Assembly (NCBI GenBank): GCA_017938245.1
Contig: JAGBBX010000015.1
Span: 1-64,000, forward strand
Direction: 5' to 3'
Length of the DNA: 64,000 nucleotides
Origin: Bacteroidaceae bacterium
Lineage (GTDB): Bacteria; Bacteroidota; Bacteroidia; Bacteroidales; Bacteroidaceae
A model generated the notes under the pieces. It was not told the origin of the DNA. It did no database searches and worked only from the letters and a program-made list of their open reading frames with translations. Shown piece after piece: positions 1 to 17,145 of the stretch (the stretch's first letter is position 1; every line of letters starts with the position of its first letter). A program made the translations under genes and the position numbers.

Positions 1-159
1 ATCCGCTAAATGGCTTATTACTTCGTCACCCTCTGTAACGATGGCTATGACTTTGCCCTTACGCGCTTTGATTTCTTGAATATTACTCAAAATCTTGTCA
101 TACATTGCATTTTGTGTTGCAATCACCACAACTGGCATCTCCTCGTCAATCAGAGCAAT
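1..159 (-). pseudogene. glmS: glmS C-terminal fragment (glutamine-fructose-6-phosphate aminotransferase)
   Basis: Read on the minus strand from 159 down to 1, the frame gives [16 protein letters not shown] followed by a stretch ending [12 protein letters not shown] at the window edge. This is the second sugar-isomerase (SIS) domain near the C-terminus of GlmS, which makes glucosamine-6-phosphate from fructose-6-phosphate and glutamine for cell-wall synthesis. The fragment continues past the left edge, so whether its true C-terminus is intact cannot be seen. Its 5' side is abruptly joined, out of frame, to a truncated C39 ABC exporter at about 158-163. The upstream part of glmS is not in the window. 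It may be a deletion scar, an insertion boundary or an assembly chimera. Confidence 0.8.
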
Positions 160-922
160 GTTTCAATAGCTTTGTCAAATAGTCGCTGAGTACACGTATC
201 TTTATTAGTGTACTCATATACAGACTCACATGGCTGCTGATAAGCCCCATGAGAAAGGTGCCGACAAAGATAAACACCTGCGCAAGCAAGATGTTCAGAA
301 TAAACCCCATATCCCGCATGCCAATACCATCGTCCACCATTGCCTGGGTCAGGAAGGGGGCGATGAGCGACAATAGCATGCCAAACAACATGCCACAGGC
401 CGATTGCGAGAGCTCCCATCGGTAGGACCATACATATTTATGGGCAAAGCGCAGAAGGCTGTGTTTTTCCTTAACTGGTTTCTTTTTAAAAAATTCCTCT
501 TTAGGTTCTATGGCCACTACGACACCTTTGTCACCATTGAGCCAAAATCGGGAAAAGGATTCTTCTGTGAAACCATGCTTGCCATAAGCCGGATTAGCTA
601 CATAATACTTCAAGTTTCCCGTCAACTGGCTTTTTCTGATGTCATACAGCACCACGAAATGGTTCTGCTCCCAATGCAAGATGGCGGGCAAAGGGCATTT
701 TTCGTGCAGCTGCTCAGGTGTCATCTCAAATGTGGCACTTTCCATACCTATCGCCTTAAGGGCATCGCGTATGCCAGCAACGCTCACTCCCTCGCGGGTC
801 AGATGAGAAAGTGATCTAAGATATGATAGCGGATAGTCCTTACCATATGCCGAAGCCACCATGCGAATACACGCTGGACCACAATCCATTTGATCAAATT
901 GTCGGGTAAATCTTAGTTTCAT
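146..922 (-). pseudogene. C39-peptidase ABC exporter, N-terminal half only
   Basis: About 255 residues of a bacteriocin/RiPP-type exporter. The N-terminal C39 peptidase has the catalytic Cys motif (QMDCGPACIRM, residues about 10-20) and the His region (LHWEQNHFVVLYD, about 85). Such peptidases cut precursors after a double-glycine leader. The first transmembrane segments of the ABC membrane domain follow (from about residue 165). The reading stops after TKLLK, where homologues continue through the rest of the membrane domain and the ATPase; the following bases read as glmS instead. I prefer the Met at 922 to the one at 934. Without its ATPase domain it cannot work as an exporter. The neighbouring double-glycine precursor and SPASM protein suggest it once served a RiPP locus. 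Confidence 0.85.
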
Positions 923-1029
923 ATGCAATATCAACGTATTGAAATCTGATTATAAGTGGACATTAGTGTTATTACCATATTGTTTTGTTTTTGAACCATT
1001 TCTTATATATTTAAATATACGGATTCTTT

Positions 1030-3954
1030 TTATTTCTTTTTGGGCTGTTTGTTTAATTTATAAATGACACGAAACATACCATAGCGTGGTATGACATTTC
1101 GCCAAGTCTCTGTGACCCCTTGCATATTAACAGAATAATTCAAATTAGAAATATTACCAAGAATATCATATCCAACAAGGGCAAAAATAAGATTACCATG
1201 TAGAATGCTCTTGGATAGTTGGGCATTCCATACAAAATTGTCCGTATTCATTACTTCATTGACAAAACCACGGTGTGCGTAGTAATTAAAGTCTGTAGCG
1301 AATTGCAAGTTCCAGGGCAACTGAACATTACCATAAATACCAGCATCTATGTTCACACCGTTAACATCTATAAAATTTTTTCGATTGCTTCTGGCACTAT
1401 GCCAAGCCATTTGAAATTTAGAACCTATCCTTATCTTCTTATAGTTATACTCTATACTCAGTGGTGTTGCCATATAGTTGGTGAACACCGTACTGCTTTC
1501 TGCTACTTTTAGTTCTGTGCTTTGCAAATCGATATTTCGATAAAAGTTATTGCTAACACCGATATTGAGAATAAAGCGTTGTTTAGCATCAATCGGTGTA
1601 TAGAAATTGCAGTTGAATCCGATGCGATAATTGCCATTGACATTCTGGGGGCGGTATGTTCGCACACCTGTCGCAGCATCATATACTTGAGCCATAGCGA
1701 CAGCATTGCGATAGAATGCAGCCATAATTTTCCCGGAAATTCGGCGCTGCTTTTCCTTGCCCCATTGGTCGGAAGTATAGAAGAGCTCAGTTGAATAAAT
1801 CTCAGTTCGACGCAAATCACTGTTGCCTTCATTGATGTTGAGTGGGTCACTGTCAAAACGAAGATTCATGAGCGAGAACATCGAAGGAAGTTGCTGCTTA
1901 TAACTGCCCTCAAGCCAGATTTGATGCTTCATTCCCGGTGTGTTACGTTCCAATCGCAACATCATAGTCGGAAGCAGCTCGGTTCGGGAACGACTTATCT
2001 GTTGCTGACCATCGAAATCAAAACTTTCCACATTTAATTCAACGCCTGGGGTAAATGTCAAACGCCAAAGCGCAGTGCGTACAAAATCGTTATCACGTTG
2101 TTCGCGTACATCGTTCTCGTAGCAGAAGGTTGCTGTGGCGAAAACATTGTGACAGGTGCGCGTGCTGAGATAGCTATTGTGGCGATCAAGAGTAGAGAGC
2201 AGGGCCTCACGCGTGGACGGCAACATGCCAAAGGTCGCCTCATTCATTTCTTCAAGCCAATCCAACCGATAAAGAGAATTTTCCTGATTGGAATATTCGT
2301 AACCATAACCAACTGATGGATTGAGGGTTGCTCGATTAAATCCTTTGGCAAAAAGAAGATAACCCCACGACAAGCCTAAATTGGCCTTTAGGTTGTCTGA
2401 CGGTTTGTCAAAGTAGCGATTTCGGTAATCATCTTTCCCGGAGTCTGCAAAATTCAGGGTGTAGAGATCAAAGGTATGAGCTTTTTTCCTGCCGGCACTA
2501 AAGTCGCCAGTAAGCCCCATACGTCGACCGGAAAACGGCATACTGAAATAAAGTTGCGTATTTATCCCTCCGCTAAAAATCTCTGAATTGTTTCTCTGAC
2601 GTATGCGCACCTTATTAACTAGAACGTCAGTCAGATTCCGACCTGCATCAGGTCCATTAAAAAGATTCTCTAAATCACCATAGCCAATGGGATTGGCAGA
2701 AAACTCTGCAGAAATTCTGTCTGAATTGTTTTTCTGATAATTGTAATCAAATCGTGGCTTCAGATAAAGTTGCGTATCGTATTTGTCATTTTCGGGACCT
2801 AACATCAGTCGAATTTTATGGTCGGTGCTAACCGAGATATTTTGTGTTTTTCCCGTTTGGCAGGATTGATTGAATACAGAACCATTAGTCTGAAATATTT
2901 CGCTATTTTGTTTAGACATTGCATTATTTTCGGAATGCATGACATTTATATTTCCTTCTATCTCGTAGCGGTGGTTCTTGTCATGTATAAGGTAATCGAA
3001 ACCTGTTGCCTCGGTGGTACTTGTACCATTACCAATAGTGCTCGGAGACCACTCCCCGTTTCTACCGGGTTTTCGACCTTCGTTCGTATTATTGGCATTA
3101 GCATAAAATGACAAACGCGATTGCGGCGTAAATCGTAAAGCAAAAAGTCGTCCAAGCCAACGCTCATGCGTCCCTCCGCCGGCCTCAGCATTGGCTAGCC
3201 AACCAATCTGGTATTCCCGTTTCAAATTCACATCCATGACAAATCTACCATTGTTTAGATTCAACCCCAATCCCTGGCTGTGTTCGCTTTCCTTATCGTA
3301 AAACTTAATATTTTTAACTGTATAGGCTGGTAAGTTGTCCAGTAATATAGTATTGTCGCCTTTGAAAAAATCCTTTCCATTGAGCAAAACGCTCTCCACT
3401 TGCTTTCCATTTACTAAAATACGTCCGTCACGTTTCAATTCCACACCAGGAAGTTGCTCCACCAATGCATCAAGCATTGACCCATTTGCCAGATTAAAAG
3501 CATCAGCATTATAAATCAGTGTGTCCCCTTTGTTATAAAATTTAATTTTTGTAGCTGTTATTGTTACTTCGTCCAATGTGCGTTCTCGGGTTGTTTGCTT
3601 ACGGCGCATTTTTATTTCACCAATAAGATAATCTGAATCCAGCTTCTTGACTTTTATTTTGAATCGTTTTATCACAGTTTCGTATTGCGGATTAGTAAGT
3701 CGAATAATATATTCCCCCGAGCGAAAGTGGACAGGGATAAAGAATCTAGAATTGGGGCGATAGTTATCCCAAAACGGTTCAGTTGTAGCAATAATGGTGC
3801 TATCCAAAGTCATTAATTCAACTCGAGTACTATCAATAACAGGCTGCATAGTAAACGCATCACGAGGCCATCCCCATAATGATAGACTATCAACATCATC
3901 TGCATAAGCAGTAGTTATGCAGAATACACAAATACACAGAATAATAGACCTCAT
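1030..3954 (-). CDS. outer-membrane beta-barrel protein (TonB-receptor-like plug plus barrel)
   Basis: About 974 residues if translation starts at the Met at 3954 (another Met lies at 3969). A signal peptide (MRSIILCICVFCITTAYA) opens this stretch. A carboxypeptidase-regulatory-like beta-sandwich follows, then a plug-like domain (LDEVTITATKIKFYNKGDT... LPGVELKRDGRILVNG), then a long Tyr/Asn/Arg-rich region with alternating strands typical of Bacteroidota OMP_b-brl_3 barrels. I see no clear TonB box. The reading frame stays open upstream to 4347, so the Cys-rich precursor peptide is fused to it without a stop. The internal signal peptide argues that the barrel can be made from its own start. 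Context suggests a role in moving or sensing the peptide at the outer membrane; this is inference. Confidence 0.75.
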   Translation of the reverse strand: MRSIILCICVFCITTAYADDVDSLSLWGWPRDAFTMQPVIDSTRVELMTLDSTIIATTEPFWDNYRPNSRFFIPVHFRSGEYIIRLTNPQYETVIKRFKIKVKKLDSDYLIGEIKMRRKQTTRERTLDEVTITATKIKFYNKGDTLIYNADAFNLANGSMLDALVEQLPGVELKRDGRILVNGKQVESVLLNGKDFFKGDNTILLDNLPAYTVKNIKFYDKESEHSQGLGLNLNNGRFVMDVNLKREYQIGWLANAEAGGGTHERWLGRLFALRFTPQSRLSFYANANNTNEGRKPGRNGEWSPSTIGNGTSTTEATGFDYLIHDKNHRYEIEGNINVMHSENNAMSKQNSEIFQTNGSVFNQSCQTGKTQNISVSTDHKIRLMLGPENDKYDTQLYLKPRFDYNYQKNNSDRISAEFSANPIGYGDLENLFNGPDAGRNLTDVLVNKVRIRQRNNSEIFSGGINTQLYFSMPFSGRRMGLTGDFSAGRKKAHTFDLYTLNFADSGKDDYRNRYFDKPSDNLKANLGLSWGYLLFAKGFNRATLNPSVGYGYEYSNQENSLYRLDWLEEMNEATFGMLPSTREALLSTLDRHNSYLSTRTCHNVFATATFCYENDVREQRDNDFVRTALWRLTFTPGVELNVESFDFDGQQQISRSRTELLPTMMLRLERNTPGMKHQIWLEGSYKQQLPSMFSLMNLRFDSDPLNINEGNSDLRRTEIYSTELFYTSDQWGKEKQRRISGKIMAAFYRNAVAMAQVYDAATGVRTYRPQNVNGNYRIGFNCNFYTPIDAKQRFILNIGVSNNFYRNIDLQSTELKVAESSTVFTNYMATPLSIEYNYKKIRIGSKFQMAWHSARSNRKNFIDVNGVNIDAGIYGNVQLPWNLQFATDFNYYAHRGFVNEVMNTDNFVWNAQLSKSILHGNLIFALVGYDILGNISNLNYSVNMQGVTETWRNVIPRYGMFRVIYKLNKQPKKK

Positions 3955-3969
3955 AAATAATAGATTCAT

Positions 3970-4347
3970 TAAAATGCTAGGAACTCTGGGAGATATACTT
4001 TTAATCAAGATATCTCCCAGAGAAGTTTTTAAGTTAGAAAGTGAAAAACCAATGCCAGTCATAGGCTGACAAGAAGCATTAGTTGCTCCTGTAGGTTCTG
4101 TTGGTGATGCAGTTGTCACGCAGTTACAATTGCAATCACAATTGTGTGCACATGCAGCGTTACATTGACAGTTGTCGTTTCCCATACAACCACTTGCGTT
4201 GTTATTGCACGAGCAATTTCCATTAATACCAGTGTGACCACAAGGGCGGCTACCAAACATGGCAAAACCTCCACGGAGCAAACCTTCTTTGTCTGCTTCC
4301 AAAAGACTGACTTCCATAATGTCAGATAATCTATTTTTGATTAACAT
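3970..4347 (-). CDS. Cys-rich double-glycine RiPP-like precursor, open into the downstream barrel gene
   Basis: The first 126 codons of the open frame 4347-1030 do not resemble the barrel. A short leader (MEVSLLEADKEGLLRGG) ends in a double glycine at residues 26-27, the cut site expected for a C39 exporter. A core with about 12 Cys among Asn, Gly and Ala follows (residues 36-93, e.g. NDNCQCNAACAHNCDCNCNC), then a Thr/Pro/Ser-rich tail. Layout and neighbours (C39 exporter, SPASM domain) fit a radical-SAM-modified natural-product precursor of the GG-Bacteroidales kind. No stop codon separates it from the barrel gene. The frame instead crosses a 13-bp hairpin (3984-4022) and runs into the barrel's signal peptide. 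Either the stop was lost or this is a true fusion. Confidence 0.6.
3984..4022 (-). promoter_or_regulatory. 13-bp perfect inverted repeat between precursor and barrel gene
   Basis: CTCTGGGAGATAT at 3984-3996 pairs perfectly with ATATCTCCCAGAG at 4010-4022 across a 13-base loop. On the minus strand it sits just after the Cys-rich core and about 30 bases before the barrel gene's likely start. There is no strong T-run after it. It may be a partial terminator or mRNA-stabilising hairpin that keeps precursor mRNA more abundant than barrel mRNA, as in other peptide operons; that role is inference. Confidence 0.6.
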
Positions 4348-4389
4348 AAATTAAAAAAATTAAGTTCGGCAATATTACCTTTTTAGTAT

Positions 4390-4830
4390 TTACTTTTGGG
4401 TACTATTGTGAATCTTCTGTTTAATACATGCTTTAATTATCTCATTAACTTGGGCTTTTAGATAGTCTTGCTTAGCATCTTCTGTCATACTTAAAAAACA
4501 AGTGTTTTTTAATCCTGCTTCAATTTTATTTTGTGTACAACTTCCATTGCATATGGGTAAAATAACACAATTTCTACAAGCCTCATTACTGTATTTTATT
4601 GCCATACGTTGAAAAAACTTTTCGTTCCACTCAATACGGCCTTCATTATTTAATCGTCCTTCCCGACTCTCTGTCGCAAAATCACGTGCTGTACATTTAA
4701 AAACATCACCATTATAATTGATAACAGCATGACGCGGAGAATCTGCATAGCAAACATGGTGAAAGTGAACATCATCTGAACCTACATCAAAACCTGCGGC
4801 TTCAAAATTATTCCGTATTTTTTGCATCAA
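4390..4830 (-). pseudogene. radical SAM peptide maturase, SPASM domain remnant
   Basis: 146 residues that match the C-terminal SPASM region of radical SAM peptide maturases: CYADSPRHAV, then INYNGDVFKCTARDF, and NEACRNCVILPICNGSCTQ, with Cys spaced to bind auxiliary iron-sulfur clusters. Complete enzymes of this type are roughly 400-450 residues, with a CxxxCxxC radical SAM core that is absent here. The frame opens about 12 codons above the Met at 4830 and then hits a stop, so the N-terminal two thirds are gone. It lies directly upstream of the Cys-rich precursor on the same strand, which supports a former precursor/maturase/exporter locus. It is most likely dead as an enzyme. Confidence 0.75.
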
Positions 4831-5074
4831 AGGTTTGCTTTTAGATAAATTCTTGCCATCCTGTCACACATGTTTCGTTATCTTGTAATCTCGTGTCGTT
4901 ATCTTGTTTTATCTTGTCGTTCATATCATATTAATGTTTTCTGGCCGCAAATATACAAACTGTTTTTGTATATAGCAAAAAAAAAAAAAAAACGGTTTTT
5001 ATAAATTATTTGCTATTCTATGATATTTCGCTATTTTTGCAGAGCATTATATCAATTCTATATACAATATAATT
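4831..5074. other. intergenic region with A-tract, divergent between RiPP locus and PLP enzyme
   Basis: On the minus strand a 27-codon open reading (MNDKIKQDNDTRLQDNETC...) runs from about 4926 and ends just before the SPASM remnant; it could be a degraded leader or the start of a lost gene. A run of A residues spans about 4977-4992. On the plus strand TCGCTATTTTTGCAG near 5030-5042 resembles a Bacteroides -7 region for the gene at 5075. Nothing else recognisable. Confidence 0.35.
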
Positions 5075-6306
5075 ATGGGTAAGAATTTTCTATCTCTAAA
5101 AGACTTTGAACTTTCCATGCGTGAAGATGCCCTTACTAGGGCTGAACTATTCCAAAACTACATCCATCAAATGGAGCAGTTTGACTCTAAAAGCTACTGG
5201 GTTATGTCACAGGATGTGTTGGAGCCAAGATGTCTTTGACGGAAACAAATACTTTATTTGATTCCTATATTTCAAATGACTACCTTGGAATGTCACAACG
5301 TAAAGAAACTATTGAAGCCGGCATAAATGCGCTTATGAAATATGGAACAGGGGCTTGTGCAGCCCAACTAATTGGAGGATATTTGGATATCCATCGACAG
5401 TTGGAAAAAGAAATTGCTGACTTTGTCGGTCAAGAAGATGCAATTCTTTTCTCTTCTGGATTTGGAGCAAATGCCGGCTTGCTTCGTGCGATACTTGGCA
5501 AGAATGACATTGCCTATATTGATTCTTATATCCATACTAGCGCGATGAGTGGATTGATTGGAACCAACACAAAGCACATCGGGCACAATGATATTGAGTA
5601 TTTGGATATGATTCTTGATAAAGAAAAAGATAAATATCAGACTCGTCTTGTCATTGTTGACGGAGTTTACTCTCAAAATGGTGATTTGTCCAAACTTCCC
5701 GAATACATTTCTGTCTGCAAGAAGCACAACTGCCTGCTTATGGTAGATGATGCCCATGGTATTGGTGTTATGGGAAATAATGGACGTGGAACAGCAGAAC
5801 ACTATAATTGTATGGGACAAGTGGATATTATTACGGGCACATTTAGTAAATCATTTGGTTGTGTTGGAGGTTATGTTGCCGCTTCTTCCAAACTTATTCA
5901 GTATTTAAGATATTATGCAGACAGCAATGTATTCTCCGCTGCAATAACGCCCCAAGTAACATGTTCTGTCCTTAAGGCTTTGGAGTTAATAAAAACCCAA
6001 CCGAGTATTCGCGAAAAATTATGGAACAATGTAAATTTCTTACGTAATGGATTGCTTGAGTCCAAATTTGACATAGGAACATCAGTTTCTCCTATTTTCC
6101 CGTTAATGGTTCGGGATAACGAAAAAGTGTATCGCATAGCTGACATGTTACAAAAAAAACGTATATTTGCAAGTGGGATAGTTTATCCTGCGGTTCGTAC
6201 CAAGGAGGCTAGGATAAGAATCAGTATTTTGGCCTCCCACGAAATAACTCAATTAAAACATCTCATTTGCAGTCTTGAGGAGATAAGAAACGAAATACCT
6301 TTTTAA
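5075..6306 (+). pseudogene. alpha-oxoamine synthase-family PLP enzyme with a frameshift
   Basis: A fold-type I PLP enzyme of the 8-amino-7-oxononanoate / glycine C-acetyltransferase / serine palmitoyltransferase group, which condenses an amino acid with an acyl-CoA or acyl carrier. The main part (5230-6306) has YGTGACAAQLIGGYLDIHR, the Asp region VDDAHGIGVMG and the PLP Lys in GTFSKSFGCVGG. The N-terminal part is in another frame: ATG at 5075 reads MGKNFLSLKDFELSMRED to about 5208, then stops at 5239. The second frame upstream of 5230 reads GYVTGCVGAK back to a stop at 5188. A one-base loss near 5200-5210 explains both. Translation from the Met at 5230 would give 358 residues. Substrate unknown. 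The TetR gene follows by 12 bases, likely one operon. Confidence 0.75.
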
Positions 6307-6318
6307 CTACACCAAGAA

Positions 6319-6957
6319 ATGGCCAACGACGGTAAACGAGTGCGCATAAGGCGCACAAAAGCCACAATAATTGAAGATATAAGGAAAGCTGCTGTGGAAA
6401 GTGTGCTTAAACGCGGGTTCTCCGGTTCACTGGTATCTGAAATTATTAAGAAAGCCAAAATTGAACCTGTTGTTTTCTACAACCGATATCAGAATCTTGA
6501 GGAGTTCTTCAGCGAATTTGTCAAAGGGTATGATTATTGGTTCTCTGATGTGGCGAAAGAAGCAAACAAACGAGAGACATCATACGATCAATTTATCGCA
6601 TTGATAGAGGGACTACAGGAATGTATGATAGAAAAGTCTGTGATGCAGGAATTGATTAGATGGGAGATTGCCGAAGGCAACGACATTACCAAAAGGACTG
6701 CATCCATACGTGAAATGTTCACTATACCACTGGCTGAGAAATACGATGACTTATTCAAAAATTCCGGGATAGATTTTGTCGCTATCGCAACGATTATCGT
6801 TAGTGGATTATATTACCTTTATTTGCATAAGGATCGTTCCACATTCTGCAATATCGACATGAACACGGAAGAAGGAAGAGACAGAATCAATCAAGCCATT
6901 AAGTTCCTTTCCGAACTTCTTTTTAGCAAAAGAAACATGGGAAAGGAAAACTTGTAA
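6319..6957 (+). CDS. TetR/AcrR-family transcriptional regulator
   Basis: 212 residues. The N-terminal helix-turn-helix of the TetR fold is clear: IIEDIRKAAVESVLKRGF, then VSEIIKKAKIEPVVFYNRYQ and NLEEFFSEFV (residues about 15-70). The C-terminal all-helical part should bind a ligand and dimerise; it has no recognisable subgroup signature. It starts 12 bases after the PLP enzyme gene, so the two are probably co-transcribed and the regulator may control that operon in response to a lipid or peptide signal; this is inference. The gene looks intact, unlike its upstream neighbour. Confidence 0.85.
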   Translation: MANDGKRVRIRRTKATIIEDIRKAAVESVLKRGFSGSLVSEIIKKAKIEPVVFYNRYQNLEEFFSEFVKGYDYWFSDVAKEANKRETSYDQFIALIEGLQECMIEKSVMQELIRWEIAEGNDITKRTASIREMFTIPLAEKYDDLFKNSGIDFVAIATIIVSGLYYLYLHKDRSTFCNIDMNTEEGRDRINQAIKFLSELLFSKRNMGKENL

Positions 6958-6965
6958 TTGTAAAT

Positions 6966-7100
6966 ATGATGTTTGGAGGTTTTTATATAAAATTTAAGGA
7001 GTTTGTCCTCAACGTATTGGGCACCATCGAGAATCTCGGTTCGTTGGAAAGCACTTCCGTGATGGACGAAATCAATCATGAATATGGTATAAACGTATAG
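6966..7100 (+). pseudogene. unrecognised 44-residue open frame, probable gene remnant
   Basis: Open from ATG at 6966 to TAG at 7098. It reads MMFGGFYIKF, then KEFVLNVLGTIENLGSLEST and ends SVMDEINHEYGINV. From about residue 11 the composition looks like a real protein C-terminus rather than noise, and it stops just before a pstB remnant on the other strand. I do not recognise the parent family. It may be a fused tail of a lost gene or noise. Confidence 0.3.
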
Positions 7101-7120
7101 GTGCGAGGAATGGTCCTCAA

Positions 7121-7213
7121 TCACCCCATCTTGCCCGTCAGATAGGCTTGGGTGCGCTCGTCGGTGGGGTTGGAGAACATGGTCTCCGTATCGCCGTACT
7201 CCACCAGTTCGCC
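7121..7213 (-). pseudogene. pstB: pstB 3'-end remnant (phosphate ABC transporter ATPase)
   Basis: On the minus strand 30 codons read [16 protein letters not shown] then [14 protein letters not shown] and a stop at 7121-7123. This matches the extreme C-terminus of PstB, the ATPase of the Pst phosphate importer. An in-frame TAG sits directly upstream (7214-7216) and no other part of pstB is present. The GC-richer sequence ends sharply on both sides. It marks a second deletion or insertion boundary, like the glmS fragment at the left edge. Confidence 0.75.
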
Positions 7214-7292
7214 CTAGGGTAGTGGATAAGTAGTGATAAATGGCGAACTTTGCAGTATTAGACTTATTGTTTTCACCCAAAAGATGGTACAA

Positions 7293-8981
7293 ATGAATAT
7301 AATAAAATATTTTAAACATCTTATTATCTTTCTGATTGATGCAACTGTTTCAGTATTCATCTTTCAAATAGTAGCACTGCTAATCTCCTATTTTTACTTT
7401 CTCCCTCCTTTCCCAGGGATATGTATTGTATGGATATTGTATTATATCATTGCCTATTGGAAATATAGAAGAACATTAGGACAAGCATTCTTTAATGCCG
7501 GGATAACAACGAAAGATAATAAACAACCGTTAGTGCTCAGGATTATTTTTAGAGAAGCGTTTACATCTTTTCCAGCGATAATGTTGTGGATACTGGGGTG
7601 GAATCAACTCATTGCATCCAGAGTTTTCTTCGTACTTTTAGTTTGCCTTTTGTTGCTACGATTTAGAAGAAAAATATTCGGAATATCCGTACAAGATAAT
7701 AAGGCATTGTCTGAGCGTAAATGCATATTGAGACTAAGACAAGTTTATTTCCTATTGATAATAACCGGTATTGTTGCCCGCTTTTTGAATATTATTGGCA
7801 CCAATGATGAAGCTATTTATACCGATTCACCATTATACGCTTCCCCCCGTCCCACTCCACACTCTGTTGGAAGATATGTGGATTTCTTAAAAGACAACCG
7901 AAAGGACATCAATGATTATGTAATGGGACTTTTTGATAAGTATGACCATATAATATTGTGTGAACGGCATCATCAGGAAATGACTCAATATGATATGATT
8001 TACAATTTGGTTACAGACAAACGATTTGTTGATAAAGTTGGAGTTATGTTTACAGAAATCGGTTGCGTTGAATCACGAAAAGCATATAAAGAATTTGTGG
8101 ACACGACCTATCCTAACGATACACTTGTCGAAAAAGGACTTGCATCATTTATGACTGAAAACCAATCCGTTCATCTTCTTTGGCCTAATACCAATTGGTT
8201 TAGTTTTCTTAAAAGGATGTATTACTTTAATCATCATAACCCGAAACAAGTGGAAATCCTTTTTGCTGACAGGAATTGGCTGGATAGAAGTATGTTGGAA
8301 GCCAGAGATAGTATTATGGCTGACAATATTATCTCCACAATATTATCGGACAGCATACAGAAATCTCTGATTATCATGAACTATAGACATGCTTATCTTA
8401 CATCTGGCAATTGTGGAAATTACATATCGCAGAAATTCCCAGATAAAGTTGCCAATGTCTTGATAAATTTTGGGAAAGCAGACTTAATTTCTGCAATCAT
8501 AAAGCCAGGAAATGAAATGATTAAACCAATCCAGTATGGGAAATGGGATGTAGCATTCGAACAAACAGAAGATTCAGACTTCGCTTTTGACTTTAGTGAA
8601 TCTCCTTTTGGAAAGGATAGATTCGATCATTTTTTTATTCCAACAAGTTCAGTTAATACTCTTCAATATCAGGATATATTTAATGGCTTTATTTACTACA
8701 AGGCACCAGAAGAACAATACACAAGCTTGGGGTACCCTTATATATTCGATTCCGGGAATATAAAAAAGTTGAAGAATAGAGAACAGATATTGAAAGGCTA
8801 TTCCTTAGAATCGTGGGAATTTCTGAAAGATGGATTGATTGTTACGGAAGGTAAGGAGATATATTACGAGATATATCAAATGGAAAATTTCGTCTTCTTG
8901 GGAGTATGTATTCTATCTTTCATCTTGAATCTTGGCTTAATTATATTAGAAGGAAAATATAGACTTGCTGATTTACACTGA
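7293..8981 (+). CDS. membrane protein: RDD-like N-terminus plus ChaN/Tiki-like domain
   Basis: 562 residues from the preferred Met at 7293 (an earlier Met at 7233 adds 20 unlikely residues). Residues about 5-140 hold four hydrophobic segments and an RDD-like pattern (IIFLIDATVS..., YRRTLGQAFFNAGI). One more segment follows near 160. The large middle region contains YDHIILCERHHQEMTQYDM and VGVMFTEIGCVESR, which resembles the haem-uptake/Tiki-type ChaN or erythromycin-esterase-like fold, and later IIMNYRHAYLTSG. A final membrane segment is near the C-terminus (FVFLGVCILSFILNLGLIIL). The combination is not one I recognise as a named family. The soluble domain likely faces the periplasm. Function unknown. 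Confidence 0.6.
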   Translation: MNIIKYFKHLIIFLIDATVSVFIFQIVALLISYFYFLPPFPGICIVWILYYIIAYWKYRRTLGQAFFNAGITTKDNKQPLVLRIIFREAFTSFPAIMLWILGWNQLIASRVFFVLLVCLLLLRFRRKIFGISVQDNKALSERKCILRLRQVYFLLIITGIVARFLNIIGTNDEAIYTDSPLYASPRPTPHSVGRYVDFLKDNRKDINDYVMGLFDKYDHIILCERHHQEMTQYDMIYNLVTDKRFVDKVGVMFTEIGCVESRKAYKEFVDTTYPNDTLVEKGLASFMTENQSVHLLWPNTNWFSFLKRMYYFNHHNPKQVEILFADRNWLDRSMLEARDSIMADNIISTILSDSIQKSLIIMNYRHAYLTSGNCGNYISQKFPDKVANVLINFGKADLISAIIKPGNEMIKPIQYGKWDVAFEQTEDSDFAFDFSESPFGKDRFDHFFIPTSSVNTLQYQDIFNGFIYYKAPEEQYTSLGYPYIFDSGNIKKLKNREQILKGYSLESWEFLKDGLIVTEGKEIYYEIYQMENFVFLGVCILSFILNLGLIILEGKYRLADLH

Positions 8982-9014
8982 ATTATAAAAATTGTTGGAT
9001 TAAAATTAGTTCTT

Positions 9015-9458
9015 ATGATGAATATTTATACAGCAGTATTGACTTTAGTTCTCTTATTGGTCTCACCCAAAATGATGGCACAACAAAATTTTCAAACACT
9101 AATAGATGACTGCTATCATTCTTTGGAGTTACAAGATAGTATTTCTTTTGTCAAAACATTCAGAGAATAAATGGACAGGAACGTTAAGTATTATAACAAC
9201 AATAACAAACTGCAAGCACTGCTGCACCTTACAAAAGCCATCAACAGCATTCCCATCGACGACGGAAGTCACGGTGAGATTAATCTTTATAACAACATCT
9301 GTTATATTCTGGGTAACATATACATAGATATGGGAATATTCGACAAGGCCTACTACTATCTATTGCACGATATGATTGAGGACGACGAAGATTCCGATTT
9401 TGCAAAAGACCTTTTGAATATGATAAATGGCGAAAATAGTGAGCAAGAGTTGAATTAG
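9015..9458 (+). pseudogene. small secreted protein split by an in-frame stop
   Basis: ATG at 9015 opens a 51-codon frame with a signal peptide (MMNIYTAVLTLVLLLVSPKMMAQ) and then FQTLIDDCYHSLELQDSISF. It ends in TAA at 9168-9170. The next codon, 9171, is ATG in the same frame and runs to 9458 (LQALLHLTKAINSIP, NICYILGNIYIDMGIFDKAYY), which looks like a tetratricopeptide-type helical pair. Both parts together make a plausible 147-residue exported TPR-like protein interrupted by one stop codon. Alternatively the second part is made alone without a signal peptide. It lies 34 bases after the membrane protein, so the two may share a transcript. Confidence 0.5.
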
Positions 9459-9591
9459 ATGATTGGATAATAATACATTTATAAGATATATAATTTAAAA
9501 AAAATAGCTAAAGACTATATAAAATACTATGATAAAGGGACTTTTATATAATATCTCTATCACTTAAGTTGTAATTCGTTTTAACAACATT

Positions 9592-10710
9592 TTACAGCTC
9601 ATTAGAAGTAACAAAATTCATAATGGTATCTACCGCCTCGTCGGGATTATCGGTAAGCGAAAGAAGCAGATTCTTATAACACCCCTTACAATGCAATGAT
9701 GTCAGCATTGAGTAAACGGGGAACCTCCTGGTCCAATATTCGCTGCCGAAAAAGACCATCGGGCTGGCATATCCGCAGGTGAGATAGTGATTTTGTGCCG
9801 CATCCTGGAAAATCTCCTGCATCGTTCCGGCGCTTCCCGGCGAGTATATCACCCCACCCTTTGCTATTGCCAATAGTCCATCCTCGCGTATGCTGTTATC
9901 AAAATATTTTGCAATGTGCGTTGCAAAAGGTGTTGCCGGCTCGTGACCGTAGAACCACGTGGGAATACCAATGCTTCTATACTCTCCTACACGCGGGAAA
10001 CGCTCCATCACCTCAAATGCCGAAGAGAGCCACCCTGCATCCTTATAGGATGGAGAGGATACCAATAAAGCAAGAGATTCATCTACTACTGCATCGGGAC
10101 GTCCTGCCAGCCAAGCGCCAAGATGGGTAGCCTCCATTGCTCCCGGGCCGCCTCCTGTTACCATTAGCGCGCCACGCTCGGTAAGATGCTTGCCCATAAT
10201 CACCACACTGCGATAGGTGGCATCGGTGCGCAAAAGAGCGTGTCCACCCATAACAGCAACAATGCTACGCTCGTCGTACAACGAAAGCATATCATAGAGA
10301 GCATCGCTTATCGAGTGGTCGTGCATAGTACGGGCAAAAGTCTCGGCAATATCACCAGCCTGCTTACCTTTATTCATATAATGAGCATACACCCTTGCAT
10401 CGAAACAAGAGGAGTAGCTATCGGGAGCTTTTGCATCAAATCCTCTGTAAAGTTCGGCTGGCGAGTATAGAGAAGCGCGAAACATATTATACGGTACATT
10501 CATCTTGGGAAAGAAGTAACAATCCTCGTCCAAGCACCGACGCACCTCTTCGGGCATAGTACAACCAAAGAAGATACAATCCGAGAATCGGCAACAGATA
10601 GCCTCGCGACCAAACTCGATGTTCTGAAAAGCGTAATGCCTAAAGATATGACCCGGAACAATGAGTTCGGCAATAGCATTATAATTCTCTATCTCGATAT
10701 ATTTATCCAT
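9592..10710 (-). CDS. LOG-family protein (lysine decarboxylase-like fold)
   Basis: 372 residues. The C-terminal two thirds are a Rossmann-type LOG domain: IVAVMGGHALLRTDATYR, VTGGGPGAMEATHLGAW and SPGSAGTMQEIFQDA, the last two matching the GGGxGxM and PGGxGTxxE nucleotide-binding motifs with small changes. LOG proteins cleave nucleoside 5'-monophosphates to base and ribose phosphate, or have unknown nucleotide substrates. The first 130 residues form an extra N-terminal region (MDKYIEIENYNAIAELIVPG) that resembles the longer LOG group seen in Bacteroidales and Proteobacteria. A TAAGTTTG box on the minus strand at 10746-10753 is a likely -7 element, giving a short leader. It appears monocistronic. 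Confidence 0.8.
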   Translation of the reverse strand: MDKYIEIENYNAIAELIVPGHIFRHYAFQNIEFGREAICCRFSDCIFFGCTMPEEVRRCLDEDCYFFPKMNVPYNMFRASLYSPAELYRGFDAKAPDSYSSCFDARVYAHYMNKGKQAGDIAETFARTMHDHSISDALYDMLSLYDERSIVAVMGGHALLRTDATYRSVVIMGKHLTERGALMVTGGGPGAMEATHLGAWLAGRPDAVVDESLALLVSSPSYKDAGWLSSAFEVMERFPRVGEYRSIGIPTWFYGHEPATPFATHIAKYFDNSIREDGLLAIAKGGVIYSPGSAGTMQEIFQDAAQNHYLTCGYASPMVFFGSEYWTRRFPVYSMLTSLHCKGCYKNLLLSLTDNPDEAVDTIMNFVTSNEL

Positions 10711-10817
10711 AACAGTTTCTTTATATTCCTTAAGTTATATTTCTACAAACTTAAATAAAAATAAATATTTTATATATGTTTCTTGAGTAATTTTAGTTGT
10801 AGAATCGTTTATAAATA

Positions 10818-10878
10818 CAAAAAAACAGTCCTACCCGAGAGTAGGACTGTTAGGTTCGACTAACCAAACTGTTTTTTT
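10818..10878 (-). terminator. nested hairpin terminator after the BspA-like gene
   Basis: CAGTCCTAC (10826-10834) pairs with GTAGGACTG (10841-10849). An outer pairing joins the A-rich CAGT at 10818-10829 to ACTGTTTTTTT at 10868-10878. On the minus strand the hairpin follows the BspA-like gene by about 35 bases and is flanked by T and A runs on both sides, so it could stop transcription in either direction. Confidence 0.75.
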
Positions 10879-10912
10879 ACTCCTCAATTCGAAAAGAGGT
10901 TAAGTGGAGCAA

Positions 10913-13400
10913 TTATTTTATTAATACCTTTTTACCGTTCACAATGTAGATACCCTTTGCGGGATTCTCTACTCGGCTGCCGCTGAGGTCGTAATAAACA
11001 GCCTCGTCCTGCTCGCTCTCGATACTTTCTATGGCTGTTGTGCCGCTAAAGTCGAAGCGGTAACCGTTGCTCAACTGAGAGCCTGGGTCGCTTGTGTCGA
11101 GATTACCATCGCCCACATTAAGCTCGCTCAAAAGCATATAAGCTCGGTTGGCGTTGTTTTTGAATGTTCCATCGGTTAATTTTGCGCGATACATTCCAAC
11201 AACACCATCAACCATTGAAAGGACGTATGCAACGCTGCCCGACTGAGGTTCAACGTATGTATCGGCCACTGTTCCACGCAGCAGATTATCGCTGATAGCC
11301 TCGGGTGTCTCATCGCTATAAGCAAATGAGTAGGTACCCTCGCCGGCTTTGATAATTACCGCGGTATTTGCAGGGATAACACCCTCTACAAGCTGCATCT
11401 TCATATAGTCACTCTCGACGCGGTTAGCGGTATAAGCCTTGGCACCCGCGGGAATCTTCACAGCCTTGTCTAAATACATTGTGGCGTACCCGGCGGACGA
11501 AACAGTAAGGGAATATTCCGCAGTGCTCATTTCTACAATATTTGTAAAGTTGCTCCAACCGTCGGTTGCAGCGTATGTGCTCTTGGCACCTGCGGGCACG
11601 TATAGGGTGCAAGCCTCATTATCTATTCCCGAAAAAGCCACGGTATTGATTGCAAATAAATCCTCGGCTGCAATACACGAAACAACACTTGTAAGAGACG
11701 TGCAACCACTGAACGCCCACGCGCCGATGCTTGTAACACTGCTTGGAATTTCAATGCTTGTAAGGCCGGTGCAATAAGCGAACGCACTCCCGCCGATGCT
11801 TGTAACACTGCTTGGAATTTCAATGCTTGTAAGGCCGTCGCAATGATAGAACGTATAGTTGCCTATGCTTGTAACACTGCTTGGAATTTCAATGCTTGTA
11901 AGGACGGTGCAATGAGCGAACGCACTATTGCCGATGCTTGTAACACTGCTTGGAATTTCAATGCTTGTAAGTCCGTTGCAATAAAAGAACGCACTCTCGC
12001 CTATGCTTGTTACACTGCTTGGAATTTCAATGCTTGTAAGGCTGTAGCAATGATAGAACGCACTATTGCCGATGCTTGTTACACCCTCGGGGATAATAGT
12101 ATTTTTAAAACCCGCTATCAAAGTATTTGATGCAGTCTCAATAATGGCATTACAATTATTGCGACTATCATAAATGGTATTTCCCTCATCGACAACAATG
12201 CTTGTAAGGCCGGTGCAACCACGGAACGCCCTCTCTCCTATGCTTGTAACACTGCTTGGAATTTCAATGCTTGTAAGGCCGCTGCAACTACCGAACGCAC
12301 TCTCGCCTATGCTTGTAACACCGCTTGGAATTTCAATGCTTGTAAGGCCGCAATATTCGAACGCATAGTCGCCTATGCTTGTAACACTGCTTGGAATTTC
12401 AATGCTTGTAAGGCCTGGGCAATAATTGAACGCACTCTCGCCTATGCTTGTAACACTGCTTGGAATTTCAATGCTTGTAAGGCCGGTGCAATCAGCGAGC
12501 GCACTATTGCCGATGCTTGTAACGCCCTCCTCGATAGTTACGCTGGTGATGTTCTCTTTATTGCTGTACCACGGTACGCGGTTGGCATCGTTGTCGGCAT
12601 AGTTGTACATTGCGCCCACGCCAAAGATTGTGAGCACGCCCGTCTCCTCATTGAGTGCCCAATAGGCGTCGTCGCCACACTTTCCGTTAAACTCGACAAT
12701 ATTTTCAAAAGCGTTCCAACCGTCAAAGCTCTCGTATGTACTCTTTGCACCTGCGGGCACGTAGAGGGTGCAAGTCTCATTATTGACACTTTGGAAAGCA
12801 TAGTCACCGGGAGTAAAAAGTTTATTGGCAGGAATATACGAAATAATACGTTTAAGACCGGAACAACCACTGAACACACTAATGCCGATGCTTGTTACAC
12901 TGCTTGGAATTTCAATGCTTGTAAGGCCGGTGCAATAATAGAACGCATTGTCGCCTATGCTTGTAACGCCCTCGGGAATAATAGTATTTTTACAACCCGC
13001 TATCAATGTATTTGATGCAGTCTCAATAATGGCATTACAATTCTTGTGACTATCATAAATGGTATTTCCCTCATCGACAACAATGCTTGTAAGGTTCCGG
13101 CAATCTTCGAACGCCCTCTCGCCGATGCTTGTAACACTGCTTGGAATTTCAATGCTTGTAAGGATCATACAACTACTGAACGCCCACTTACCTATGCTTG
13201 TAACACTGCTTGGTATTTCAATGCTTGTAAGGCCGGTGCAATAATAGAACGCATCGTTACCGATGCTTGTAACACTGCTTGGAATTTCAATGCTTGTAAG
13301 GCCGTGGCAACCTTCGAACGCACCATTGCCGATGCTTGTAACACTATAAGTGATACTATTGTAAGTAACACTTGCGGGAATAGTTACTGCACCGGAGTAT
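10913..13400 (-). repeat. tandem 69-base coding repeats inside the BspA-like gene
   Basis: On the plus strand a unit containing TGCTTGTAACACTGCTTGG and AATTTCAATGCTTGTAAGG returns every 69 bases, in arrays at about 11700-12090, 12200-12520 and 12880-13340, with short variable stretches of about 30 bases between. The near-identical 37-base core with variable gaps mimics a CRISPR array but encodes LTSIEIPSSVTSIG repeats in frame. Confidence 0.85.
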
Positions 13401-13552
13401 TTGTTACTACCGCTTGTTACCTCAACGGTTTTATCCTCAGAGGATAAAATGTTGTAATAAATTCCATCGACCTCAAAATCCGCGGCACCTGCCACTGTGC
13501 AACAAAGCAGTAGCAGGGCTGTCATTAGTTGCTTTAAGTAATTTTGTGTCAT
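10913..13552 (-). CDS. BspA-family leucine-rich-repeat surface protein
   Basis: 879 residues. A Sec signal peptide (MTQNYLKQLMTALLLLCCTVAGA) precedes two blocks of 23-residue TPLRR/LRR_5 repeats of the form LTSIEIPSSVTSIGxxAFxxC, about 7 and 12 repeats. Each block contains a longer VDEGNTIYDS... insert and a CTLYVPAGAKSTY cap. A beta-rich region follows (about 680-810). The C-terminus YYDLSGSRVENPAKGIYIV then NGKKVLIK is the motif common on exported Bacteroidales proteins. BspA-type repeats bind host matrix proteins or other bacteria in some oral species. The repeats are nearly identical at DNA level (period 69 bases), so copy number may change by recombination. Confidence 0.9.
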   Translation of the reverse strand: MTQNYLKQLMTALLLLCCTVAGAADFEVDGIYYNILSSEDKTVEVTSGSNKYSGAVTIPASVTYNSITYSVTSIGNGAFEGCHGLTSIEIPSSVTSIGNDAFYYCTGLTSIEIPSSVTSIGKWAFSSCMILTSIEIPSSVTSIGERAFEDCRNLTSIVVDEGNTIYDSHKNCNAIIETASNTLIAGCKNTIIPEGVTSIGDNAFYYCTGLTSIEIPSSVTSIGISVFSGCSGLKRIISYIPANKLFTPGDYAFQSVNNETCTLYVPAGAKSTYESFDGWNAFENIVEFNGKCGDDAYWALNEETGVLTIFGVGAMYNYADNDANRVPWYSNKENITSVTIEEGVTSIGNSALADCTGLTSIEIPSSVTSIGESAFNYCPGLTSIEIPSSVTSIGDYAFEYCGLTSIEIPSGVTSIGESAFGSCSGLTSIEIPSSVTSIGERAFRGCTGLTSIVVDEGNTIYDSRNNCNAIIETASNTLIAGFKNTIIPEGVTSIGNSAFYHCYSLTSIEIPSSVTSIGESAFFYCNGLTSIEIPSSVTSIGNSAFAHCTVLTSIEIPSSVTSIGNYTFYHCDGLTSIEIPSSVTSIGGSAFAYCTGLTSIEIPSSVTSIGAWAFSGCTSLTSVVSCIAAEDLFAINTVAFSGIDNEACTLYVPAGAKSTYAATDGWSNFTNIVEMSTAEYSLTVSSAGYATMYLDKAVKIPAGAKAYTANRVESDYMKMQLVEGVIPANTAVIIKAGEGTYSFAYSDETPEAISDNLLRGTVADTYVEPQSGSVAYVLSMVDGVVGMYRAKLTDGTFKNNANRAYMLLSELNVGDGNLDTSDPGSQLSNGYRFDFSGTTAIESIESEQDEAVYYDLSGSRVENPAKGIYIVNGKKVLIK

Positions 13553-13673
13553 AATTTTATTTTATAAAATGTTATATCATAATCAAACGCAAAAACCAAC
13601 AGCATTTGCGTACAACTTGCGCGTGTTAACACTCTCAGACGGCAATTGTATTAAACGTCTTATTATCTTTTAC

Positions 13674-14306
13674 TTACTTTTTTTTCATTCCCTTATATAT
13701 CAATACAGCAAGCACAACAAGTACAACAACAGCAATACCGATGCCAATCTCCTTGCTATACTTCTCGACTGCTTCCATCACCTCGGCCTCTGTTGTCAAT
13801 CCGGGAATCTGTGCCATTGCATAACCAAGAGCAGCAAGAACAATGTTCCAAGCACCGGCACCAAGTGCTGTAAAGAGCACAAATTTACCGAGCCCCATAC
13901 GTGCAAGACCCGCAGGAATTGAAATAAGCTGACGTACAGCAGGAATAAGACGACCCACAAATGTTGAAACAGCACCGTGCTTGTCGAAATACTCCTCGGC
14001 ATACTTTACCTTTGCCTCGTCAATCAGACATAAATGTCCAAAGCGGCTGTTGGCAAATTTATACACGATGGGACGTCCCAACCACAAAGCCAAATAATAA
14101 TTTATAAATGCTCCGATTAGCGCGCCAAGTGTAGCAAAGAGTACCACCAGCACTATATTCATATCACCGCTCACAGTAGCCTTCCACGCGGCAGGAGGCA
14201 CCACAGCCTCCGATGGGAAAGGTATAAAAGAACTCTCGACAGCCATAAAAAAAGTTACTGTCCAATAATTTAAATGCTCAAGACAAAATTGTATCAAAGA
14301 TTCCAT
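13674..14306 (-). CDS. DedA-family membrane protein
   Basis: 210 residues with the DedA/SNARE-associated (VTT) fold. Visible markers are the N-terminal FFMAVESSFIPFPSEAV, the central GRPIVYKFANSRFG and the signature FVGRLIPAVRQLISIPAGLAR. There are five to six hydrophobic segments, the last near the C-terminus (IGIGIAVVVLVVLAVLIYKG). Family members are inner-membrane lipid-flippase-like proteins; some move undecaprenyl phosphate or phosphatidylethanolamine and affect envelope and drug tolerance. It is on the same strand as the calcium ATPase gene upstream, with 71 bases between, so possibly co-transcribed. Substrate cannot be told from sequence. Confidence 0.88.
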   Translation of the reverse strand: MESLIQFCLEHLNYWTVTFFMAVESSFIPFPSEAVVPPAAWKATVSGDMNIVLVVLFATLGALIGAFINYYLALWLGRPIVYKFANSRFGHLCLIDEAKVKYAEEYFDKHGAVSTFVGRLIPAVRQLISIPAGLARMGLGKFVLFTALGAGAWNIVLAALGYAMAQIPGLTTEAEVMEAVEKYSKEIGIGIAVVVLVVLAVLIYKGMKKK

Positions 14307-14377
14307 ACTTTTTCTTAATTAGGCAATTATATACAAAACTACTCAATTACTTTATAAAACTCGACAAAAGAACTCGC

Positions 14378-17056
14378 TTATCTCGGAGCAAAAAATCTCC
14401 TACGAATATAACCCACAAGAATTCCCACCAAAAGTACCGGAGAGGTTGCAACAGTAATCTGCACCCAATCTTTTATACCAAGCGGCTCTACACTGAACAT
14501 TTCTCCTCCAAATTCAACTATCAACACCTGACCAATGAATATAAGCAACAATATAAATAGAAATGTACGCTCTTTCAGTATTCCGCTGAAAGTCCACTTA
14601 TCGGTCATAAAAGCCTTTGCGTTAAAGAGGTTCCACCATTGCAACATTACAAAGAATGTAAAGAAGAACGACATATTACGCATTGTCATTCCACCATTGG
14701 CATTCATATAGAGAAGAAGCCCCATAAGCGCTGCAAAAAAGAGTGCTGCTACCGAGAATATCGTACAAGCCATATTACGCGTAACAATAAAATCGCTGTT
14801 CTTGCGGGGTTTCTCATTCATCACGCTCTCGCTGGGAGAGAGCGAGGCCAACGCACAAGATGCAAAAGTGTCCATAATAAGGTTTACCCACAACATCTGA
14901 GTGATTGTCAGCGGAGAGGATGTTCCAATGAGTGAGCCAAACATTACAATAAGGCAAGCCACCACATTTATGGTAAGCTGGAACAGCAGGAAACGCTGAA
15001 TATTCTTATAGAGCGAACGTCCCCACATCACAGCACGTACAATGCTGCTAAAGGAGTTATCGATAATTGTTATATCACTCGCCTCCTTCGCAACCGATGT
15101 ACCGTCGCCCATAGAGAGTCCCACTTGTGCAGCCTTAAGTGCCGGAGCATCATTTGTACCATCGCCCGTAACAGCAACCACCTCACCCTGCTCTTGCAGC
15201 AGACGCACCAGCCGCTGTTTATCCATAGGACGTGCACGACACATTATTTTCAGTCTCTTTATACGCTGCACAGCCTCCTCGTCACTAAGTGCCTCGAAAG
15301 CCGGGCCAGTGATTACCGCATCTCCGGCTTCTGAACCATTTAAGATTCCAATCTGTCGGCCAATCTCCGAAGCTGTGCCGGGGGTATCTCCGGTAACAAT
15401 TTTAATATCAATTCCGGCAGATAAACAACGCGAAACAGCATCGGGAACGTCACTGCGCACAGGGTCGGAAATAGCAGCAAAACCTATATATTTAAGGTCT
15501 AATCCACTCACAAGGCGACCATTGCTATATGGTGCATCATTTTCATCCTCGCGCAGCACAGCGTATGCAAAACCCAATGTACGCATAGCCTTACTCTGAT
15601 ACTCAAGCAATTTTCGTTCTATAGCTTCGCGACACTCGTCGATGCTCTTATCCCCTGCTGCAGTCTCAACAGCATTACACATCGAGAGAACAATCTCGGG
15701 GGCGCCTTTTACATAAAGAATGCGTTTACCAGAGTGTGCCGACCTCACCACCGTTGCCATATATTTGCGTTCAGTAGAAAAGGTGAGCACACTCAGCACA
15801 TCGGGCTCGGCACGCAGCGGAGCATAGTCAATGCCTTGCTTATCCATCCATAGCAACAATGCACACTCAGTAGGATTACCGATTGTCTCTACCCCACTCG
15901 CCGACCTATCGAGATTGGCTGTTGAGTTTACGGCAATCCCCTCCATTATCAAGTTACGACTCTCGGAAGTGGGATTCTTGGTATCGAGAGGAAAGAAATC
16001 GGCTTCGTACACCTGCATACGATTCTGTGTAAGTGTTCCTGTCTTATCGGTACAGATTACCGTTGCTGCACCCATTGTCTCGCAGGCGTGCATCTTGCGC
16101 ACCAGGTTATTTGTCTTTAGCATACGGTTCATACTAAGTGCCAGGCTCAGTGTAACACTCATAGGTAGTCCCTCGGGCACAGACACAACAATAAGTGTTA
16201 CGGCAATCATAAAGTTGCTTAGAAGTTCCGAACCTATTTGCAACCACGACAACTCGCTAAAATTCCACAATCCTTTTATCGAAAGCAGAATGAATGTAAT
16301 TGCAGCGACAGAATAGCCCACCTTGCTTATTAGGCCAGCCAGTCTCTTCAGCTGCATCTGTAGCGGTGTTTCAAGGTTATTTTCTATCAACGAGCCGTGA
16401 TTCACCTTGCCATATTCGGTAGCATCGCCAACAGTGGTGACACGCATCACACCGTTTCCATCGACCACAGTGGTACTGCGCATAGCCATATTCGACGGAT
16501 AGGTTGCCTCAGGGTCGAACTCCTCTTCAATTGTAGTCTTTGATATCACAGGCTCTCCCGTCAGTGTCGATTCGTTTATCTGCAAAGAGTTTGCCTCGAT
16601 AATCTCACCATCGGCCGGGACTTCGTCGCCCGTATTCAGTATGACAATATCCCCTACGACAATATCTTTTCGCGGAACCTGATGCACACCACCGTCGCGC
16701 TTCACCGTCACCGCAATGTCATCGTTTACCGTATTCAATCGGTCAAAAGCATTGGCGGCCTTTACCTCAAAAGCGAATCCTATTACCGTTGCCAACAGCA
16801 CCGCCACAAAGATACCTATCGGCTCGAGAAAAGCCGAAAAGCCCTCTTGCTCGGGGCCGAAACAGTGGAAGCACGAGATTGCAAACGCAAGCACCAGCGC
16901 AACCAATAAAATAATAATTATTGGATCCTTGAATTTTTCCAAGAAACGTATCCACAGAGGAGTCTTTTCGGGCGGTGTCAAAATGTTAGCACCATAAAGG
17001 CGTCTCTGTTCTTCGACCTCTTTCGAGGTAAGTCCTTTAAATTGTTTATTTTCCAT
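14378..17056 (-). CDS. calcium-translocating P-type ATPase (PMCA/SERCA type)
   Basis: 892 residues with the full P-type ATPase layout: N-terminal cation-ATPase segment (FKGLTSKEVEEQRRLYGANI), TGE actuator motif (NESTLTGEPVISK), the M4 motif VSVPEGLPMSV typical of Ca2+ pumps, the phosphorylation motif ICTDKTGTLTQNRM, the KGAPE nucleotide-binding motif and the hinge VTGDGTNDAPALK, followed by the C-terminal membrane helices. It exports Ca2+ from the cytoplasm at the expense of ATP. The PEGLP motif and length favour the PMCA-like bacterial group over heavy-metal pumps. Complete and apparently normal. Confidence 0.9.
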   Translation of the reverse strand: MENKQFKGLTSKEVEEQRRLYGANILTPPEKTPLWIRFLEKFKDPIIIILLVALVLAFAISCFHCFGPEQEGFSAFLEPIGIFVAVLLATVIGFAFEVKAANAFDRLNTVNDDIAVTVKRDGGVHQVPRKDIVVGDIVILNTGDEVPADGEIIEANSLQINESTLTGEPVISKTTIEEEFDPEATYPSNMAMRSTTVVDGNGVMRVTTVGDATEYGKVNHGSLIENNLETPLQMQLKRLAGLISKVGYSVAAITFILLSIKGLWNFSELSWLQIGSELLSNFMIAVTLIVVSVPEGLPMSVTLSLALSMNRMLKTNNLVRKMHACETMGAATVICTDKTGTLTQNRMQVYEADFFPLDTKNPTSESRNLIMEGIAVNSTANLDRSASGVETIGNPTECALLLWMDKQGIDYAPLRAEPDVLSVLTFSTERKYMATVVRSAHSGKRILYVKGAPEIVLSMCNAVETAAGDKSIDECREAIERKLLEYQSKAMRTLGFAYAVLREDENDAPYSNGRLVSGLDLKYIGFAAISDPVRSDVPDAVSRCLSAGIDIKIVTGDTPGTASEIGRQIGILNGSEAGDAVITGPAFEALSDEEAVQRIKRLKIMCRARPMDKQRLVRLLQEQGEVVAVTGDGTNDAPALKAAQVGLSMGDGTSVAKEASDITIIDNSFSSIVRAVMWGRSLYKNIQRFLLFQLTINVVACLIVMFGSLIGTSSPLTITQMLWVNLIMDTFASCALASLSPSESVMNEKPRKNSDFIVTRNMACTIFSVAALFFAALMGLLLYMNANGGMTMRNMSFFFTFFVMLQWWNLFNAKAFMTDKWTFSGILKERTFLFILLLIFIGQVLIVEFGGEMFSVEPLGIKDWVQITVATSPVLLVGILVGYIRRRFFAPR

Positions 17057-17145
17057 TTGTTTGTATTAACAAAATACTTTTACCCTAAGAAACTAATTGC
17101 CAGAAGTCTCTTATCTTGCTAACGTAATTGTTTACAAAATTAACA

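Follow-up and report, generated by a model that had tools for sequence, protein, structure and literature searches.

The window analyzed here, a stretch of 64,000 nucleotides from a Bacteroidaceae genome, carries on its reverse strand a single open reading frame (ORF) that extends from an ATG at position 4347 to a stop codon ending at 1030. The frame comprises 1105 codons with no internal stop, which bears out the continuity seen in the sequence-only reading, and encodes a double-glycine (GG) leader, a Cys-rich stretch, and then an outer-membrane barrel. A maturase remnant lies upstream of this fused frame and an exporter remnant lies downstream.

The RiPP precursor gene occupies positions 4034 to 4347 (−), as delimited by alignment with relatives (L052/L002 and L005) and by a free-standing ORF of 104 amino acids in L052. 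Its GG leader, MLIKNRLSDIMEVSLLEADKEGLLRGG (4267 to 4347, −), was defined from a family alignment of 17 rows and ends in EGLLRGGF, with the two glycines at residues 26 and 27; E21, G22, L24, G26, G27, and F28 are invariant in that alignment. The Cys/Asn-rich core (4050 to 4266, −), placed by the sequence and the family alignment, holds all 12 Cys of the precursor part, in agreement with the GG leader and core of about 12 Cys reported before. The free 104-amino-acid copy in L052 also has 12 Cys and is identical over residues 1 to 101. Other precursors end in GFFTF (G162 and G188) or GLFTF (G252), and the last residue of the 38 non-fused precursors is F in 23 and F, I, L, V, or W in 34. This hydrophobic end is missing from the window copy because of a frame change. 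The precursor-barrel pair had been called intact, a description that suits the complete barrel and not the precursor. The window copy carries a GG leader but, lacking its own stop, is not a short free-standing precursor. Its first 127 residues had no NCBIfam match at E values up to 1, and the sole Pfam model found was subthreshold (10.2 bits against a cut-off of 22). The GG precursor family TIGR04149 matched neither the window precursor at E values up to 1 nor three relatives at E values up to 0.01. For the tested members of the precursor family (the window copy and these three relatives), neither NCBIfam nor Pfam gave a match above the cut-off.

Between the precursor and the barrel, the codons of the fused frame cover an intercistronic hairpin at 3985 to 4021 (−); the folded piece, 3966 to 4050, has a minimum free energy of −24.8 kcal/mol (z = −4.4). 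The barrel gene (1030 to 3969, −) was assigned by profile, structure model, and Foldseek search to PF14905 (47.4 bits, above the cut-off of 27) and to a TonB-dependent-transporter-like fold. The barrel of the relative L061, 66% identical, has no Pfam match at E values up to 0.01, and the barrel profile matched none of the sequences of solved structures at the same limit. Judged by eye, the N-terminus resembles a signal peptide with its own start, either ATG 3969 (MNLLFMRSIILC...) or ATG 3954. An internal signal peptide starting at 3954 had been proposed; the signal-peptide-like N-terminus was recovered, while the start could be either ATG, 3954 being the equivalent of the barrel start in the relative L055. 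TonB-dependent transporters combine a plug with a barrel of 22 strands. The structure model has a mean pLDDT of 78.9 and a plug region of low confidence. The 50 listed of 176 Foldseek hits with E ≤ 0.001 (E values of 3.7e-12 to 2.7e-10) are proteins that we take to be TonB-dependent transporters; their query TM-scores are only 0.23 to 0.34 with rmsd values of 19 to 33, the plug region being of low confidence. The model thus suggests a TonB-transporter-like barrel.

The dN/dS values of the barrel against L054 and L055 (0.073 and 0.078) point to purifying selection in these comparisons; dS is saturated against L056, L061, and L062. L054, L055, and L056 are also the nearest barrels in the tree outside the G162/G252 clade, and loci L054 to L057 gave no precursor match at E values up to 1, within a view limited by contig ends. 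The L054, L055, and L056 barrels, having no precursor match, indicate that a barrel can persist alone, and the window barrel would presumably still be made from its own start at 3969 or 3954. In L054, positions 278 to 8991 hold three tandem barrels of the window-barrel family, with no precursor match in the locus.

Both neighboring genes are broken, as noted earlier. The radical SAM/SPASM maturase remnant (4390 to 4830, −; DNA match to 4875) retains only the C-terminal SPASM part, residues 284 to 437 of the 445-amino-acid G188 enzyme. The remnant of the C39 peptidase-ABC exporter (PCAT) (146 to 934, −) retains the peptidase domain and the start of the membrane domain, residues 1 to 254 of a 728-amino-acid relative. 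Neither gene is intact in the window; full-length maturases are found in G188, G239, G125, and others, and full-length C39-ABC exporters in L062, L066, and L078. The remnants in G162 are cut elsewhere (maturase residues 326 to 437, exporter residues 3 to 187), and these differing break points are read as independent decay. The contig itself begins inside glmS (window 16 to 162, −; model positions 505 to 553), joined to the truncated exporter gene, and no other glmS match turned up in the genome, which is incomplete. The join reflects either a deletion or a chimeric contig end.

Intact relatives share the order glycosyltransferase, radical SAM/SPASM maturase, one or more GG-leader Cys-rich precursors, hairpin, barrel, and, in some, PCAT. 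Their maturases have 429 to 445 amino acids and their GT2-type glycosyltransferases mostly about 800. A domain scan covered the glycosyltransferases of L061 and a shorter gene of L066. The L061 gene (4778 to 7171, −), of the GT2 type, adjoins the maturase and has a weak C-terminal LanC-like match (20.7 bits, below the Pfam cut-off of 23.2).

Close copies and the origin of the fused frame

A protein search of 301 family genomes returned 21 rows in 13 genomes, the window's own row included. The G162 match has 92% identity over residues 1 to 114 and the G252 match 80% identity over 40 residues, each with a TAA inside. DNA alignment showed that both copies (the G162 contig is also L052) have one extra base at a short run of T, followed by an in-frame TAA. 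In G162/L052 the genes are separate, with a 104-amino-acid ORF ending in GFFTF and a stop and a barrel ATG 85 nt past that stop. They are likewise separate in G252, where the precursor remnant ends in GLFTF and a stop and the barrel ATG follows after 10 nt. The G188 precursor, 68% identical to that of the window, also ends in GFFTF and a stop, with a separate barrel.

The frame-change site is the T run at 4044 to 4048 (−); the corresponding stretch is one base longer in G162/L052, G252/L005, and G188/L061. In the alignment with L052/L002 and L005 this run precedes the ancestral precursor TAA, which is still present in the window at 4036 to 4034, out of frame. The one-base difference in length ahead of this TAA makes the window frame slide into the barrel and accounts for the continuity of the ORF across the join. 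The loss of a stop codon suggested earlier is accurate in that the stop no longer ends the frame, but its bases are unmutated and were shifted out of frame by the difference upstream. Two larger differences accompany the single base. G162 has 21 additional bases directly upstream of the barrel ATG, which carry a stop in the barrel frame, and the 54 bases that contain the hairpin in the window and G162, a length divisible by three, are absent from G252. The window thus differs from G252 by the one base and the in-frame 54, and from G162 by the one base and the 21.

We scored 29 precursor-barrel spacers (28 from relatives and that of the G252 remnant) for a barrel frame that is open back into the precursor end. 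This frame was already open in 10, among them G252, and closed in 19, among them G162, whose extra 21 bases bring a stop. With 10 of 29 spacers open, one small change can give such a fusion, and selection is not needed to explain it.

The window locus is very probably a Bacteroidaceae RiPP cluster copy in decay, whose precursor is one base short in the T run before its stop and falls by chance into the barrel frame. This explanation draws support from the truncation of maturase and exporter, from the separate genes of the relatives, from the hairpin that the fused frame crosses, and from the barrel dN/dS against L054 and L055; decay had also been favored in the first reading. On this account a ribosome would pass the old precursor stop in another frame and then read through the intercistronic hairpin, by chance in frame with the barrel. 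Any read-through product would presumably be functionless, because the remnant maturase has no radical SAM core and the exporter no ATPase. Two observations count against this explanation. Clear constraint on the barrel is not seen between near-identical copies, where synonymous and non-synonymous codon differences number 1 and 3 to G162 and 2 and 6 to G252, and the join is fully open in the barrel frame, an outcome that a random event need not produce, since 19 of 29 spacers are closed.

The decaying-copy explanation covers both a base missing in the organism and a base missing only in the assembly. There is an appreciable chance, somewhat below even, that the difference is a sequencing or assembly error and that the real strain has two separate genes; this concerns only whether the deletion is real and is compatible with the account of the fused look given above. 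The difference sits in a short T run of a MAG of 63 contigs with 86% completeness and 6.9% contamination, whose contig start here is the doubtful join inside glmS. As a rule of thumb, however, typical homopolymer errors tend to fall in runs longer than five T, and since the neighboring genes are broken too, the locus is decaying and may plausibly have undergone a real change.

The region around the fused frame is 98.8% identical to G162 over 977 to 4755 and 98.4% over 4861 to 6985, the two genomes being assigned to different genera, and 99.7% identical to G252 over 908 to 3674. Other matches longer than 1 kb within 4900 to 24000, in four other genomes, are 66 to 88% identical. From these identities, the simplest reading would be a recent transfer of region 977 to 6985 between genera.

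Precursors, barrels, and hairpins across the family

A precursor profile built from the 17-row alignment, window row included, was searched against 399 family genomes drawn from a larger group and found 43 precursor places in 24 genomes (G000 included). The window place is the only one in a long open frame (1106 in this search). The other 42 lie in frames of 70 to 292 amino acids, and in 3 of these the match itself contains a stop. We re-read 37 of the 42 in larger fetched stretches, leaving out the five places of G015, G150, G247, G366, and G432. Together with the G252 remnant and the window this gave 39 frames. All except the window, 38 in total, are unfused; all except the G252 remnant, which has no leader, carry the GG motif, again 38; and 37 combine both. 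The proposed check of whether homologues of the precursor region are free-standing or fused therefore returned no fusion at the 42 other places. Long barrel frames in three loci were rejected as true fusions: the upstream frame in L056 has no precursor-like sequence, the L068 barrel is extended by N-terminal domains and its precursor is a separate gene next to it, and the L071 barrel is apparently partly duplicated.

A barrel lies directly downstream of the precursor in 28 of the 38 non-fused frames, with spacers of 52 to 136 nt; the L068 and L071 barrel starts were set from separate readings of these loci, the automatic estimate having taken a later Met. Five of the remaining 10 are first members of tandem pairs (L062, L069, L116, L118, and L067). 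The others are an L067 precursor before a broken barrel, an L115 precursor separated from its barrel start by 416 nt, the G252 remnant, with a spacing of 10 nt, and two precursors, one in L065 and one in L076, with no barrel match within 700 nt downstream.

Hairpins were examined in the spacers of loci L060 to L079 and L110 to L123. Measured against dinucleotide-shuffled RNA, 27 of 28 precursor-to-barrel spacers hold a hairpin with z ≤ −2.5 (median, −4.9); the second spacer in L066 has no significant fold (z = +0.9). The stems in the 28 spacers have 10 to 19 pairs and begin 1 to 20 nt past the precursor stop in 26. Their sequences look unrelated in most loci; the nearly identical pair formed by L118 and one L111 spacer means that not every one of the 28 is independent. 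The control sets, small and taken from the same loci, gave a hairpin in 1 of 8 maturase-to-precursor spacers (a 291-nt spacer holding another precursor; a ninth, of 4 nt, was left out), in 0 of 2 precursor-to-precursor spacers (a third, of 17 nt, was left out), and in 3 of 14 co-directional spacers of 40 to 150 nt, one of these preceding a barrel in G162. The precursor-to-barrel hairpin is a family trait, kept in position but not in sequence. It may serve transcript stability or the separate setting of precursor and barrel levels. A standard terminator was rejected, as none of the 6 terminator-like sites at 900 to 5300 (3.5 expected by shuffling) coincides with the window hairpin, although one of them sits inside the precursor end at 4071 to 4053. 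No clear terminator tail follows the stems of the 28 spacers, where up to 8 bases past the stem hold 1 to 6 T. A repeated element was rejected as well: of the genomes searched, G000 and G162 have the window stem once each, and the four others do not have it.

Since the relatives' spacers hold such hairpins and the fused frame translates through one, the window stretch at the hairpin appears to be non-coding in origin. This bears on the suggestion that an outer-membrane barrel carries the Cys-rich peptide at its N-terminus, for display or export. The 1105 open codons and the complete barrel would suit such a functional fusion. It is nevertheless highly improbable, and we rejected it because none of the 42 other places, 37 of them re-read, has such a frame; the relatives examined all have a stop between precursor and barrel. 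The window frame moreover crosses a hairpin that is intergenic in relatives, the barrel would have its signal peptide inside the chain, the C-terminus usual for precursors is missing, and the maturase core and exporter ATPase are absent from the locus.

Programmed frameshifting that joins precursor and barrel throughout the family and is hard-wired in the window is extremely improbable. In its favor, 17 of the 29 spacers have a length of 3n+1, placing the barrel in the +1 frame, and a strong hairpin follows the stop. The loci are related, however, so the offset count is not independent, and the hairpin lies past the stop and not at a known shift site. Programmed frameshifting was rejected on the 19 of 29 spacers with a barrel-frame stop before the precursor end, in which the long product is impossible.

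The fusion, read as a one-base event in a decaying cluster, cautions against calling long frames in MAGs new architectures. The fused frame is not a new kind of gene, and the intact family is the more interesting subject.

Relation to known systems

The best match of the two intact maturases tested is the radical SAM/SPASM family TIGR04463, with 146.8 and 144.2 bits; these scores are far below its curated cut-off of 525 bits, so the two enzymes are not members. Methanobactin-type peptides are Cys-derived, modified, and encoded with a TonB-dependent receptor or transporter. Such systems would resemble the window family in pairing a Cys-rich peptide with a TonB-type barrel, but their modifying enzymes differ, and the likeness covers the genes alone and not metal binding.

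TIGR04149 precursors have a GG-type leader. As described in the available text of PMC4573289, they form pairs with radical SAM enzymes in Bacteroides; these GG-Bacteroidales precursors would thus share with the window family a radical SAM partner and an origin in Bacteroidetes, and differ from it in that neither the window precursor nor the three relatives tested match the profile. The available text of PMC10352776 reports gene clusters of Bacteroidales that hold radical SAM enzymes and PCATs together with GG-motif precursors, LanC-like proteins, and outer-membrane proteins. BGC1-9 of that study resemble the intact clusters in their GG-motif precursors, radical SAM enzymes, and PCAT exporters, with LanC-like and glycosyltransferase genes in some, and in their outer-membrane proteins, several clusters having no identified membrane-fusion protein. 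Within that text, an NxxC-type Cys-rich precursor, a pairing of one precursor with one barrel, and the hairpin are not described, and the main text as available does not use the word "TonB." A non-exhaustive literature search on related clusters, precursor fusions, and post-precursor hairpins found nothing relevant beyond PMC10352776 and PMC4573289.

Judging from the gene families of the intact clusters, the radical SAM enzyme would modify the precursor, the PCAT would cut the leader and export the core, and the partner barrel would handle the mature peptide, via uptake, as a receptor, or in release. We tentatively propose, as a possible though rather doubtful reading, that the intact family is a Bacteroidaceae RiPP system in which most of the Cys-rich precursors with a GG leader are neighbored by a TonB-transporter-like barrel of their own, the hairpin between them persists as a structure despite turnover of its sequence, and the mature peptide is a secreted ligand (e.g., metal binding) taken back by the partner barrel. 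If this is true, barrels that outlive their clusters would be scavengers of neighbors' peptides. The precursor-barrel pairing (28 of 38 adjacent), the positional hairpin, and the unmatched precursors together give a testable model of outer-membrane peptide handling.

On a single contig of 14.5 kb, the L111 locus (G099:C27) has three pairs of precursor and barrel, and every pair has a hairpin of its own.
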